DNA of 32,653 nt. Origin: an uncultured Gammaproteobacteria bacterium. Lineage in GTDB: Bacteria; Pseudomonadota; Gammaproteobacteria; Enterobacterales; Psychrobiaceae. The stretch covers positions 1 to 32,653 of the forward strand of contig CAJXRU010000035.1 of assembly GCA_913060565.1 (NCBI GenBank). Direction: 5' to 3'. Of the stretch, positions 25,819-32,653 are shown piece by piece. The notes below the pieces were generated by a model, which searched no databases, was not told where the DNA came from, and saw only the letters and a list, made by a program, of their open reading frames with translations. Each line of letters begins with the position of its first letter. The stretch's first letter is position 1. A program made the translations under genes and the position numbers.

Positions 25819-26214
25819 CTATTTTCCGTGGAGAGAGACAAGAAGCTCAGCTTCACCGCGCGGCAACTCACATTCGCGGATAATATCATCGACACTTGCG
25901 CCCAATTCGACCATCTTCATGGCATGCCCATAGAGTTTGGACTGCGGATCTGAATTTACTTGAGATAACTGTTCTTGACGTTCCATCGCTTGAGCCAATT
26001 TGCCTTCGACGTCCTGAACTCGACTACCAACCCCTAAAGTACCGGTTCGTAATTCGTGGATTTGTGCTTTAACTGATGAAATTTGACGCTGTTGTTCATG
26101 AAACAACAACTTTAGCGCGCTAATTTGGCGTTGACGTTTATTAATCGCTAACCATAAGCCAACAATTGCTAGCAATAGCACAGCAGGCACAATCCATAAA
26201 AATAACTCGTTCAT
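25819..26214 (-). CDS. DUF2802 protein of the chemotaxis cluster
   Basis: A 131-residue protein from the ATG at 26214; a TTG at 26235 would add seven residues. It has one N-terminal membrane helix (LFLWIVPAVLLLAIVGLWLAI), a coiled-coil stretch (about 25-85, QRQISALKLLFHEQQRQISS) and a C-terminal small domain KLYGHAMKMVELGASVDDIIRECELPRGEAELLVSLH, the DUF2802 signature. Homologues sit after cheW at the end of polar flagellar/chemotaxis operons in Pseudomonas, Vibrio and Shewanella. I know no settled function. It is the last gene of the cluster, starting 31 bases after the cheW stop, and no clear terminator follows it. Confidence 0.88.
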   Translation of the reverse strand: MNELFLWIVPAVLLLAIVGLWLAINKRQRQISALKLLFHEQQRQISSVKAQIHELRTGTLGVGSRVQDVEGKLAQAMERQEQLSQVNSDPQSKLYGHAMKMVELGASVDDIIRECELPRGEAELLVSLHGK

Positions 26215-26245
26215 GTATAAACCTGCTGCTAACAAATCGACAAAC

Positions 26246-26737
26246 TTAGAATGACGCTATGTCATCCCACTCTTCATCACTTAATAGTTTATCTAAATCT
26301 ACTAAAATAAGTAGCTCACTTTCACGATTACAAACGCCTTTAATAAACTTAGCACTTTCGTCAGTACCAACATTGGGTGCCAGTTCAATTTCAGAGGCTT
26401 TCATATAAACTACTTCAGCAACGCTATCAACTAAGATCCCAATCACTTGCTTGTCTGACTCTATGATCACGACACGCGTATTATCGGTAATGTCTGATGG
26501 TGGCAAACCAAAACGTGACCGAGTATCAATAACGGTAACAACACTACCACGGAGATTGATAATACCTAATACGTACGAAGGTGCGCCAGGAACAGGTGCA
26601 ATATCACTGTAACGTAATACTTCTTGTACTTGCATTACATTAACGCCGTATGTTTCATTCTCTAGCTTGAATGTAACCCATTGCAGCATTTCGTCATTAT
26701 CGACTGAATTTACTGACATTTCTGTTTCTGCATTCAT
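26246..26737 (-). CDS. cheW: Chemotaxis coupling protein CheW
   Basis: A 163-residue CheW. After a short acidic N-terminal tail come the typical segments QWVTFKLENETYGVNVMQVQEVLRY, PGAPSYVLGIINLRGSVVTVIDTRSRFGL, VVIIESDKQVIGILVDSVAEVVYM and the final ESELLILVDLDKLL. It couples chemoreceptors to the CheA kinase in polar arrays. The ATG at 26737 follows GAGGAA. It lies 27 bases after the ParA/CheW-like fusion gene, in the order seen in Pseudomonas and Vibrio polar chemotaxis loci. Confidence 0.97.
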   Translation of the reverse strand: MNAETEMSVNSVDNDEMLQWVTFKLENETYGVNVMQVQEVLRYSDIAPVPGAPSYVLGIINLRGSVVTVIDTRSRFGLPPSDITDNTRVVIIESDKQVIGILVDSVAEVVYMKASEIELAPNVGTDESAKFIKGVCNRESELLILVDLDKLLSDEEWDDIASF

Positions 26738-26764: not shown

Positions 26765-28381
26765 TTACTTCGTCTCATTGTTCTCAAATAATTCGATTAA
26801 GGCATCGACGGCTAATAAGCCACACATCCGGTGTTTTACTGTTCCTGCGAGCCATGGACTACGAGTCACATCGGTTCGCCATTTTATTTCATCGTGCGAT
26901 AACGTGGTGCTATCAATAAGTCTATTACACTCTAAGCCCCAATTACTATCACCTATTACAATAATATACTGATAATTTGGTGAATATTCTAGTGACGTCC
27001 CATATTTTTCAGGCATCAAGTAACGTGCAGTATCGATAACATTAAGCTGCTCATCGCGCTCAATTTGAACGCCGCTAAACCAATTTGGTTTACCAATTAA
27101 TTTAGTCAGAGATTTTCTGCGATAAATGCCTTTAAGTTTTACTAACGGAACTGAAAAAGTCTGCCCCATGACTTCAAAAAATAGTGCAGGAAAACCTTCT
27201 TCTAGTTCATTCATTGCTGTATTGACGTGCAATGGTCCCGTAGCAGGGAGAGTTGTTTGCTCTGAAGCGCTTTCAACATCCGGTTTTTCCGGCTCAATAA
27301 CCTCTTCTATAATAGGTGCCGACTCTGCAATGACTGACTTTACATCAATCTCATCAATTACAGAGGGCTCTTCAATAACTTCGGCGTCTGGTTCAGGAGA
27401 GATTTCATTCAATAGTGAAGGATCTATCAATTCAGGAGCAACATCGATTTGCGGTGCGACATCACCAACTTTCTCTAACAACTTTGCCAGTGGTTGAGAT
27501 TCAACAGCGCTATTCTTAGGTTCATCTAACAGCACATCAAAGAAATCTTTGACAGCTTGCGAGGAACGGCTTTCCATTAATTTTTTTTCGTCCAAAGCTC
27601 TATTACCGGTGTAATCTTCTTCTAAGAGTGAATCTAATAACAATCCATATGCAACAACACCTCTGCTTCGCGGCGCAAATTGTGGCAATGGTAAATGACG
27701 TTCACTCGCATCTCTAAATTTTGTATCGACGGGAATGACCTTATCCCAAACTCGATGTTCAAATGTTTCTTTCATAGTTTCTAACGACTGCGCACTCGCC
27801 TTTGTTCGGCGATCATACATAGTAGGCACAATTATATAATTATACGGCGTTTTATTAGAACGTTGCATGATGAGTAAGGTTTTCACCATGCGCTCCAGCC
27901 CTTTAAAGGCTAGATATTCCGTTTGCACTGGCACAATGACTTTGCTACTACATGCCAATGCATTCACCATAAGCACGCCAAGTACTGGAGAGCAATCAAC
28001 AATCACATGATCATAATCAGCCGTAACACCAGCCAAAATACGCTTAAGTATTAGACCCATCCCTTCTTTGTGGCCTAATTCACGATCTAGGGTTGCAAGC
28101 GCCATTGATGAGGGAATTAAATCTATTTCTTCAACATTGGTTTTTTGAATCACGCGCTGCGTTAATCGGTCGATAAATTTATCTGGGCAAGTAAACAAAT
28201 CGTACAGTGAATATTCTAACTCATCACAATCGACACCTAATGAAAAACCCATTGAAGAATGGGGATCGATATCAACCAACAATACACGTTTTTTACGACG
28301 CGCTAAAATTCCCGCTAAGGTTAAAGCGGTTGTCGTTTTACCCACGCCACCTTTTTGGTTAGCAATGCTCCAAACTTTCAC
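26765..28381 (-). CDS. Fused ParA-type ATPase and CheW-like protein (ParC-ParP-like)
   Basis: One uninterrupted 538-residue frame. Residues 1-255 are a ParA/MinD-family ATPase with deviant Walker [10 protein letters not shown] (signature lysine K10, K15), [16 protein letters not shown], and [14 protein letters not shown]. Residues about 260-382 are an acidic, Pro/Glu/Ile-rich low-complexity linker. Residues about 383-538 are a CheW-like domain ([25 protein letters not shown] to [13 protein letters not shown]). In Vibrio and Pseudomonas the same place is held by two genes: a ParA-like ATPase (ParC) and a protein with a proline-rich region and CheW-like AIF domain (ParP), which place chemotaxis arrays at the pole. 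Here they appear joined. The start is GTG at 28381 with an AGGAG site overlapping the motD stop region. Confidence 0.92.
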
Positions 28382-28384
28382 ACG

Positions 28385-29344
28385 TTACTCCTGTTTACGG
28401 GTGGTGATTCGTAATCCACCATTTGGCAATTCAATAACTTGTATCTCTTTGCTATCTTCAATAGGCCCAACGTCTTTAAGTGGCAGAGCCTCAGCCACAT
28501 CTTGCGTAACAGGTCGTGGTTTTACCCAGCCAAATTTACTAATCGCGATTACCACTCGTCTGTTTTGAGCACGAGTTTGCGCGTTACTATTGTCTACCTT
28601 TGGACGATATTGCCCATAGGCTTCGATCGCTAAGCGTTCAGGTTCAATGTCAAGTTGCTGTAATTCTTGAACAATTGCACTAGCTCGTGCTGATGATAGC
28701 TGCCAATTAGATTGAAATTGTTCATTACTAATCGATTGATCATCCGTATACCCACGCACATGTACATAGTTATTTGCTGGTGCAATGGTTCCAATTACTT
28801 GCTTTAAAACAGCCTTAGTTGCACTACGAGTCACTGCACTACCACTATCAAAAAGCAGTCCACTACGAAACTCAATCGTTAGCCAGTTATCATCTTGCTC
28901 TATCTGGGCGTAACCTTTTTCGACGACCTCAAGAAGGTCCTGTGCCAATTTTTCTTTCATTGATGAAAACGGGGTACCCAGCTGTTTCACATCTGGATTC
29001 ACCAACTGGCTGTCACCCGGCACAGGTTCGGTTCCAACCTCATCCAACAGGCCTTTATTGAAATCTTTAAGTTCTGATAATTTATCGCCTGATGTCAACG
29101 GCGTATCACTACTGTTTTGCTCAACCTTTCCTAATCCACCCTGCTCTTTTTTACCGGCTAAGTGAAAAATCTCTCCTAAGCTATTTGATAAAATGGCATG
29201 TTTTTCTTCTTTGATTAAAGCAAACGCGTAAAGCACAACAAATAATGCAAATAATAAGGTCATATAATCGGCGTATGAAACTAGCCATCGCTCTAGATGG
29301 CTATCTTCTTGCACTACATTCTGTGCTCGTCGACTATTGAGCAT
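28385..29344 (-). CDS. motD: Flagellar motor stator protein, MotB/MotD type
   Basis: A MotB-family stator protein, 319 residues from the ATG at 29344, which has AAGG upstream; an ATG six codons earlier is weaker. One membrane helix carries the proton/ion-binding aspartate (WLVSYADYMTLLFALFVV, D26). A long plug/linker follows, then the OmpA-like peptidoglycan-binding domain (FDSGSAVTRSA, VHVRGYTDD, NWQLSSARASAIVQEL, YGQYRP, NRRVVIAI). A C-terminal extension of about 50 residues follows that domain. Start and motC stop overlap (ATGCTCAATAG). Position after cheB and motC is as in Pseudomonas, hence the symbol; which ion it uses is not decided. Confidence 0.93.
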   Translation of the reverse strand: MLNSRRAQNVVQEDSHLERWLVSYADYMTLLFALFVVLYAFALIKEEKHAILSNSLGEIFHLAGKKEQGGLGKVEQNSSDTPLTSGDKLSELKDFNKGLLDEVGTEPVPGDSQLVNPDVKQLGTPFSSMKEKLAQDLLEVVEKGYAQIEQDDNWLTIEFRSGLLFDSGSAVTRSATKAVLKQVIGTIAPANNYVHVRGYTDDQSISNEQFQSNWQLSSARASAIVQELQQLDIEPERLAIEAYGQYRPKVDNSNAQTRAQNRRVVIAISKFGWVKPRPVTQDVAEALPLKDVGPIEDSKEIQVIELPNGGLRITTRKQE

Positions 29345-30086
29345 AGGCGACCTTATAGGCATCTAAACGACGACTGATATGTTGAGGATTTTCACCTCGG
29401 TGAATCATTAACGTACCCTCAAGCACCATTTCGTAATACAGCGTGTTTTGAAAAATAATATGACGTAATTTGTAATGAATAGGTAGGTAAATAAGGTTAG
29501 CGAATCCCACACCATAAATCGTTGCAACAAACGCCGTTGCAATACCGCCCCCTAACGCATCAGGTTGATCAAGATATTGCATCGATTGAATCAGACCTAA
29601 GACAGCGCCTAAGATTCCAAGTGTTGGGCTATATCCCCCCATTGACTCATACACCTTGGCACTATGACCAAATTCATCCCGCTGGAAATAAATTTGAGTT
29701 TCCATCGTTTCTTGCAACACTTCAGGCGAAGAGCCGTCAATCAACATCATTAAACATTGGCGAACAATAGGGTCTTCTTCTTGCTCTAACTGATTTTCTA
29801 ATGGTAAAAATCCGTCACTTCGTGAGATATTACACCACTTAACTAACGTATCTATCCGCGTTTGAATATCAAATCGTGGCGGAAACAAGACCCATTTAAG
29901 CAATATAAAACTACGTGTAAAAATGTGCCACGGTGTCTGAATCATTACAGCCGCAAGCGTTCCGACTACAACAATTAGCAGCGCAGGGCCGTTATATAAG
30001 GCGATTAACGAGCCGCCCTCGAGTACTTGACCACCGATAATTGCGACCAGCGCTAATAAAAGACCAAATAGACTCAGTCTATCCAT
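29334..30086 (-). CDS. motC: Flagellar motor stator protein, MotA/MotC type
   Basis: A 250-residue MotA-family protein with four membrane helices: about 5-25 and 31-52, then 150-170 and 185-205. The cytoplasmic loop between helices two and three has the usual charged region. Signatures are GGSLIALYNGPALLIVVVGTLAAVMIQTP near the N-terminus and ESMGGYSPTLGILGAVLGLIQSM followed by GGGIATAFVATIYGVGFANLIYLP. With the MotD-type partner it forms the ion-conducting stator around the polar flagellum. Its ATG overlaps the cheB stop by 8 bases, indicating translational coupling. Named motC by gene order as in Pseudomonas. Confidence 0.94.
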   Translation of the reverse strand: MDRLSLFGLLLALVAIIGGQVLEGGSLIALYNGPALLIVVVGTLAAVMIQTPWHIFTRSFILLKWVLFPPRFDIQTRIDTLVKWCNISRSDGFLPLENQLEQEEDPIVRQCLMMLIDGSSPEVLQETMETQIYFQRDEFGHSAKVYESMGGYSPTLGILGAVLGLIQSMQYLDQPDALGGGIATAFVATIYGVGFANLIYLPIHYKLRHIIFQNTLYYEMVLEGTLMIHRGENPQHISRRLDAYKVAYAQ

Positions 30087-31245
30087 GAGTCATCTCTTTA
30101 ACGATAGATTCACCAATAACATCAATTGGCATCACTTTATCGGTTAATCCCGCTTTTTTTACCGCTTGTGGCATTCCATAAACAACGGATGTCGCTTCAT
30201 CTTGAGCCCACACGGTTGCACCGCGTGTCTTTAACATTTTAGCACCGTCACAACCATCTGCGCCCATACCCGTTAACACGACGGTTAATGTATTTCCGTC
30301 ATTAAATTTCGACACTGTTGCAAAAGTGACATCTGCACAAGGCTTATAATTCAAATCACTCGGGCCAGGCACAACTTTAAGTCTGTTGCCTCGTTCAAGT
30401 AACATTTGCATGCCACCGGGTGCCAGATAAGCTTGCCCAGGACGAATGACATCACCATTTTTAGCTTCTTGGACACCAATATTACAAAGTCGATTTAAAC
30501 GCTCAGCAAAGGCACCGGTAAATGCAGCAGGCATATGCTGTACAAGTAAGATAGGGTACGGAAAGTTAGCAGGGAGTTTACTAAGTACAGACTGTAATGC
30601 AACAGGGCCGCCGGTAGACGATGCAATAGCAAGTAAGGAATATTTTTTACCACTAGCACTACTAACGCCAGAAGCTCGAACAGGTGTAGTACGCTCGGGA
30701 ACAGCAGTAGCTCGTTTGATAACTTGAGTTTGATTAGCTAGCGGCGCGCCGCGAGATCGACTTGCGGTCGTTGCGGTATTACGATCTAATCTACGAGAAG
30801 AGGAAGGCGCAGTAGATGTTGTTGTAAATGATGCGCGTCTTGCAACACTACGCCCGCCTAACGCTTTAATTGCAGTTGTAATTCGCTCTGTCGCAACCTT
30901 TCCTGACCCTGCTATCTCTTCAAATTTCTTAGGTAAGAAATCTGCGGCACCAGCGTCTAATGCATCAAGGGTCGCTTTAGCGCCTTCATGAGTCAACGAT
31001 GAAAACATCAAAATAGGCATCGCCTGCTTTGCCATAATTTCGCGCGTTGCATCAATGCCATTCTTGATGGGCATTTCGATGTCCATCATTACAACGTCTG
31101 GTTTTAATGACAGTGCTTTTTCAACACCTTCTTGACCATTTTTTGCATAATCAATGACTTCCATCCCTTGCGCTTTCGTGATGATATCACCAATACAACG
31201 TCTAAAAAAATGAGAGTCATCAACAATTAATACCTTAATACTCAT
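30079..31245 (-). CDS. cheB: Chemotaxis protein-glutamate methylesterase CheB
   Basis: A 388-residue CheB. The receiver domain (1-125) has D9, D10 and phospho-acceptor D55 (VVMMDIEMP) plus the conserved Lys in PKKFEE. A Ser/Thr/Arg-rich linker (about 135-195) is longer than in E. coli CheB. The methylesterase domain has the catalytic serine in SSTGGP, the histidine in VQHMPAAFTGAFAERL, and the aspartate in LTGMGADGCDGAK. It removes methyl groups from receptors when phosphorylated by CheA, giving adaptation. The ATG at 31245 follows AGGAGG; it starts 39 bases after the cheA stop and overlaps motC at its end. Confidence 0.97.
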   Translation of the reverse strand: MSIKVLIVDDSHFFRRCIGDIITKAQGMEVIDYAKNGQEGVEKALSLKPDVVMMDIEMPIKNGIDATREIMAKQAMPILMFSSLTHEGAKATLDALDAGAADFLPKKFEEIAGSGKVATERITTAIKALGGRSVARRASFTTTSTAPSSSRRLDRNTATTASRSRGAPLANQTQVIKRATAVPERTTPVRASGVSSASGKKYSLLAIASSTGGPVALQSVLSKLPANFPYPILLVQHMPAAFTGAFAERLNRLCNIGVQEAKNGDVIRPGQAYLAPGGMQMLLERGNRLKVVPGPSDLNYKPCADVTFATVSKFNDGNTLTVVLTGMGADGCDGAKMLKTRGATVWAQDEATSVVYGMPQAVKKAGLTDKVMPIDVIGESIVKEMTHG

Positions 31246-32602: not shown

Positions 32603-32653
32603 CTGTCTCTTATACACATCTGACGCTGCCGACGAAGAGGATAGTGTAGATCT
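32603..32653. other. Illumina Nextera adapter contamination
   Basis: 32603-32621 is the 19-base Tn5 mosaic end in the orientation found at the end of Nextera reads. 32622-32635 is the rest of the Nextera read-1 adapter. 32636-32643 (AGAGGATA) is the reverse complement of index TATCCTCT, which I recall as i5 index 503, and 32644-32653 is the start of the P5 oligonucleotide. None of this is genomic. Confidence 0.98.

Follow-up and report, generated by a model that had tools for sequence, protein, structure and literature searches.

Introduction

ATPases of the ParA/MinD type position their cargo by means of adaptors that they bind reversibly. In Vibrio, ParP binds chemoreceptors and CheA through its C-terminal AIF domain, thereby tying the arrays to ParC, and its N-terminus, separated from this domain by a long proline-rich linker, contacts ParC (PMC5706961). 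The same source assigns the contact with CheA to W305 of the V. cholerae protein and the contact with the receptors to L209. One sentence in a review (PMC7534058) places ParC binding at the C-terminal side of ParP, whereas PMC5706961 places it at the N-terminus. The review further gives the stoichiometry of the V. cholerae array as 1.4 ParP : 7.5 CheA : 50 CheW. In Halothiobacillus neapolitanus, the ParC/PpfA homolog Hn0722 is encoded in a chemotaxis operon and is needed for both the assembly and the positioning of the clusters, according to PMC10241942. Among the papers listed by searches of the open-licence PubMed Central literature, none showed a ParC-ParP or ParA-CheW fusion.

Here, we describe a locus at which a ParC-type and a ParP-type module share a single open frame. 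It lies in a stretch of 32,653 nucleotides that was analyzed as a whole and is referred to as the window.

Domain Composition of the Open Frame

A single uninterrupted frame runs from position 28381 to 26765 on the minus strand of the window, starting with GTG and encoding 538 amino acids (aa); the plus strand over 26765-28381 has stops throughout. The initial annotation had described this frame as a ParA-type ATPase and a CheW-like domain in one chain, and the Pfam profile search bears this out. AAA_31 covers residues 1-175 (E 5.5e-48) and CbiA residues 5-232 (E 5.1e-21), and CheW (PF01584) covers residues 399-530 (E 1.4e-11; 44.6 bits, cut-off 23.5). The N-terminal module is an ATPase of the ParA/MinD type with an intact deviant Walker A box, and it shares 96%, 94% and 89% identity with the separate ParC proteins encoded at the related loci L031, L030 and L025, respectively. 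The CheW-like domain can be aligned with its counterparts in 41 relatives. Among the matches listed, all NCBIfam ParA models stayed below their cut-off for this chain. The ParP part retrieved no NCBIfam family, and no chain among the solved structures matched the CheW-like domain at E values up to 1. It had also been stated that ParC and ParP are encoded side by side at this locus in Vibrio and Pseudomonas, and this arrangement is indeed seen in the syntenic loci of relatives. Judged by orthology to these neighboring genes, the N-terminal module is almost certainly an ATPase of the ParC type and the C-terminal one a protein of the ParP type; as assembled, they form one frame instead of separate polypeptides.

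The region between the ATPase and the CheW-like domain had initially been taken for an acidic, proline-rich linker of 120 residues. The composition stands, as residues 290-395 comprise 26 D/E and 12 P out of 106, but the region is not a single element. It consists of spacer codons 257-268, the ParP N-terminal segment (residues ~269-288) and the acidic stretch itself. A segment resembling [DE]YFxxLLxEP is found near the ParP start of most relatives (e.g., L036, L042, L048, L051), while the linkers are highly variable, both as judged by eye; the segment is a candidate ParC-binding motif. Since the N-terminal segment of ParP, which is the reported ParC binder (PMC5706961), lies within the presumed linker and is still present, the contact between ParC and ParP has probably been kept, with the segment now in cis, rather than removed by the fusion as was first proposed.

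A structure model of the whole chain, built from a 10-row alignment, has low confidence (mean pLDDT 50, pTM 0.42). At this level of confidence, it places strands at residues 397-494 and a helix at residues 266-285, which fits the module layout, and its pLDDT drops below 50 over residues 255-395. The coordinates of all features are collected in Table 1.

Table 1. Features of the open frame and of the surrounding operon, in window coordinates.
Feature	Position	Strand	Basis or remark
DUF2802 gene, downstream of cheW	25819..26235	-	Pfam DUF2802
cheW, downstream of parP	26246..26737	-	Pfam CheW, E 1.5e-40
parP module, 270 residues, possible internal start	26768..27577	-	Conserved ATG at 27577
CheW-like (AIF) domain, residues 399-530	26792..27187	-	Pfam PF01584
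Trp510	26852..26854	-	W in 40/42 rows, Y in 2; on spacing alone, a candidate counterpart of the CheA-contact residue W305 in the ParP of V. cholerae
Leu413 and Leu416	27134..27145	-	Each in 42/42 rows; on spacing alone, candidate counterparts of the receptor-contact residue L209 in the ParP of V. cholerae
Acidic, proline-containing ParP linker, residues 289-396	27194..27517	-	Composition; pLDDT <50 for residues 255-395
ParP N-terminal segment, residues 269-288	27518..27577	-	Resembles the [DE]YFxxLLxEP-like segment of most relatives (alignment by eye); presumed ParC-binding helix
36 bases that formerly separated parC from parP, read as codons 257-268 in the open frame	27578..27613	-	Alignment
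Codon 257 = TAC	27611..27613	-	Aligned with the parC stop TAA of L031 and L030, the two nearest relatives
parC module, residues 1-256	27614..28381	-	GTG start; ParA/MinD-type ATPase; AAA_31, E 5.5e-48
motB/motD-like gene, upstream of parC	28385..29362	-	Pfam MotB_plug, OmpA
motA/motC-like gene	29334..30086	-	Pfam MotA_ExbB
cheB	30079..31245	-	Pfam Response_reg and CheB_methylest
cheA, 5' part lost at contig end	31285..32602	-	Pfam H-kinase_dim, HATPase_c, CheW; adapter beyond 32602

Genomic Context

The genes around the frame follow the order cheA-cheB-motA/motB-like-X-cheW, which is the same in relatives, and parC is located in this chemotaxis operon beside parP and cheW. At the far end, positions 32603-32653 of the window are a Nextera-type adapter that adds a spurious start, MCIRDS, to the cheA frame; a literature search for this string gave no match. 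In the related genome G006, cheA (L071:15115-17340, minus strand) contains four ITDDEFEALLDELHG-like copies between the HPt part at the N-terminus and the dimerization domain. A CheA with a LID domain is among the features of ParC/ParP systems, and this acidic repeat stretch, which precedes the dimerization domain, is possibly a LID-like region; the window cheA is cut off in the stretch that follows such repeats. A different arrangement is found at L022:2745-3515, where parC is part of a flagellar/chemotaxis operon with cheW immediately following it and no ParP match in between.

A separate full-length parP elsewhere in the genome had been named in the initial annotation as an observation that would count against a fusion. 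It was searched for and not found, the ParP query giving one match in this 215-contig draft. Eight CheW domains occur in the genome, i.e., those of the fused chain, the operon cheW, two CheA proteins, a second CheW, two CheV-like proteins (L003 and L005, a pair assigned by eye) and one 166-aa frame (C6:29036).

Occurrence of Split and Fused Forms

Out of 58 related genomes, 51 gave some match to the whole chain, and the 39 loci compared are those of relatives for which ParC as well as ParP had a match among those listed. The survey of split and fused forms suggested along with the initial annotation came out on the side of the split form throughout. In 39 out of 39 relatives' loci, parC and parP are separate frames, and the window alone has them in a shared one. 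Two more distant loci with full-length tblastn matches in a search of named genomes (L021 and L023) consist of two genes that overlap by a few bases. The eight genomes of the same genus in the survey are all split, including the nearest one with a 96% identical ParC. In four genomes (G002, G006, G007 and G038), one match spanned both parts, as a fusion would, yet stops are present inside these matches and all four have two genes.

In the wider surveys, a locus counted as a possible fusion when the open frame holding the ParP match reached about 450 aa, and matches at a contig edge (e.g., G192, G461) are uninformative. A ParP match was present in 101 of the 158 genomes of the order and in 96 of the 369 genomes of the class, with the window included in both counts and G014 and G038 common to both surveys. 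No second fusion was found among the other 100 ParP-bearing genomes of the order, nor among the other 95 of the class. The longest frames were also considered individually: G099 and G083 (>450 aa) and G121 (446 aa) in the order, and G224, G284 and G374 together with G282 (429 aa) in the class, are all two genes, with parP in a different frame from parC. A larger survey of the order yielded a ParP match in 245 of 394 genomes, and among the matches listed only the window and G099, the latter being the two-gene case, exceed 450 aa.

Junction between the Two Modules

The nearest relatives of the window are L031 (genome G007) and L030 (genome G006). In both, ParC ends with a TAA located exactly at the position of the TAC of the window. 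The two versions of the parC stop thus differ by one base, and the frame is open because of this codon. The former spacer is identical to that of L031 at 33 of its 36 bases and to that of L030 at 27 of 36. The parP ATG follows 36 bases on and is conserved and in frame in the window, L030 and L031, with 28 identical bases around it in all three. As the change from TAA to TAC is the single difference at the stop and the nearest relatives have the same frame, the fusion is one base away from the two-gene form. At 4 of the 41 split loci (L030, L031, L051 and L053), parP lies directly in frame after the parC stop with no further stop in between, so that one substitution there suffices for a fusion; the other split loci differ from this in-frame arrangement in frames, spacing or additional stops. 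An established fusion would be found in more than one genome, and the ParC-ParP architecture put forward initially was seen in one of those surveyed, at a single base from the ordinary pair.

Reliability of the Assembled Sequence

Between the window and L031, dN and dS amount to 0.027 and 1.35 for parC and to 0.014 and 0.51 for the last 150 codons of parP. These dS values indicate that the branch leading to the window is long enough for a real substitution. The low dN relative to dS in both modules points to strong constraint, with neither of them decaying. Of the other window genes, 25 out of 25 end where those of relatives do, with deviations of no more than 13 codons across the alignments; one poor partial alignment (54% identity) among these comparisons runs on for 50 codons. 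When the ORFs of G006 were compared with stretches of this genome, 10 of 186 were flagged, comprising six start-codon extensions, one C-terminal alignment slip, parC and two unexplained cases. The reverse direction flagged 13 of 186, namely the window pair, one partial match (62%), two frame flags located in neighboring ORFs of 111 aa, and nine early stops, all within the first 33 codons. With so few flagged ORFs and with intact stops in the window, broken frames are not widespread in the assembly.

Two genes of this genome may carry an internal stop (codon 95) or a frame change relative to G006, i.e., L080/L142-L144 (G000, contig C2) and L079/L139-L141 (contig C1). Finally, the 215-contig genome contains 215 exact copies of a 19-base adapter end, which we take to be the Nextera mosaic end; of the copies listed, those on contigs of known length lie at contig ends. 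That 215 adapter matches were left in the assembly indicates that the reads were not adapter-trimmed.

Interpretation of the Open Frame

The open frame is best explained by a real, private stop-loss in an ordinary parC-parP pair that yields a fused product, a reading to which we assign a probability of about 65%. The parC stop would then have changed from TAA to TAC by substitution in this one genome, and ribosomes finishing parC would continue via the 12 spacer codons into parP. The output would mostly be a ParC-spacer-ParP chain, perhaps accompanied by a share of free ParP initiated at the retained ATG. A chain of this kind could act as ParC and ParP do, with the ATPase holding the pole and the CheW-like domain inserting into the array of receptors and CheA, and it would provide one adaptor per ATPase on a flexible acidic tether of about 110 residues. 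Placement of the array at the pole is a proposed role for the chain, by analogy with the described systems. A natural single-chain ParC-ParP, in which a positioning ATPase of the ParA type and the adaptor for its cargo are linked covalently and the ATPase-binding segment of the adaptor is kept in cis, is a more tentative proposition, to which we give less than even odds.

What speaks against a real fused product is that a single genome shows it, compared with 0 of 39 relatives, 0 of 100 other genomes of the order and 0 of 95 others of the class. The absence of a fused relative is what a consensus error would predict, in which the genome truly has TAA, one base was miscalled and the two proteins are separate, as they are in all relatives compared. 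One base is enough for this, a single difference at the most visible place looks like such an error, and the adapters left in the assembly betray light quality control. On the other hand, none of the 25 other window genes compared has lost its stop, few genes are disrupted relative to G006, and the site is situated about 5 kb inside the contig, away from its end. Moreover, at the dS of parC, real substitutions should be far commoner than the usual consensus errors, although this is a general argument. We give a miscalled base about half the weight of a real stop-loss. Still less can be said for the fusion being adaptive, established and typical of the lineage: both modules are intact and constrained and 4 of the 41 split loci are one step away from it, but the same-genus genomes are split without exception, the one with the nearly identical ParC among them, and the order and class surveys show no other case. 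We consider this quite improbable.

A real stop-loss may also have a mixed output, consisting of the fused chain and of separate ParP started at the ATG at 27577, in which case their ratio is not fixed. The 1:1 ratio that the initial annotation derived from the fusion is not secure for this reason, as translation of a separate ParP could begin at the parP ATG, which is unchanged together with the sequence around it. The conservation of this start in the window, L030 and L031 extends to its anti-Shine-Dalgarno score, which is -3.0 kcal/mol in all three. This is weak compared with cheW (-5.8) and cheB (-10.2) of the operon, and initiation within the frame may be blocked by ribosomes arriving from parC. 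The score decides little, however, because the starts of motC (-2.9), motD (0.9) and queA (0.1) are no stronger. An unchanged ATG context would be expected of a recent change, of an erroneous one and of continued initiation of ParP at this site. On balance, a mixed output appears rather unlikely, and predominant synthesis of the fused chain from a real stop-loss is the reading that we prefer.

If functional, the chain would place the array at the pole without dissociation of ParC and ParP, a state reached by one base change. A functional one-chain ParC-ParP would test both the need for dissociation and the importance of ParP being scarce in arrays. Should the base be an error, the locus offers a lesson for gene calling, since one base makes a normal pair an apparent fusion.

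Comparison with Known Systems

The case is a one-genome, unconfirmed variant of a known system. By orthology, the system of the window is ParC/ParP, except for the separate chains. It has the same modules in the same order as in Vibrio, where ParP likewise consists of an N-terminal segment, a long proline-containing linker and a C-terminal CheW-like domain (PMC5706961). ParC and ParP are, however, two proteins there and in every relative checked, whereas they share one frame in the window. Similarly, Hn0722 resembles the ParC module of the window in being a ParC/PpfA homolog encoded in a chemotaxis operon; Hn0722 and Hn0723 are two overlapping genes instead of one, and the partner is named CheW in PMC10241942. 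CheV offers a likeness of another kind, as it also has a CheW-like domain fused to another array module, but it carries a receiver domain where the chain of the window has a ParA ATPase.
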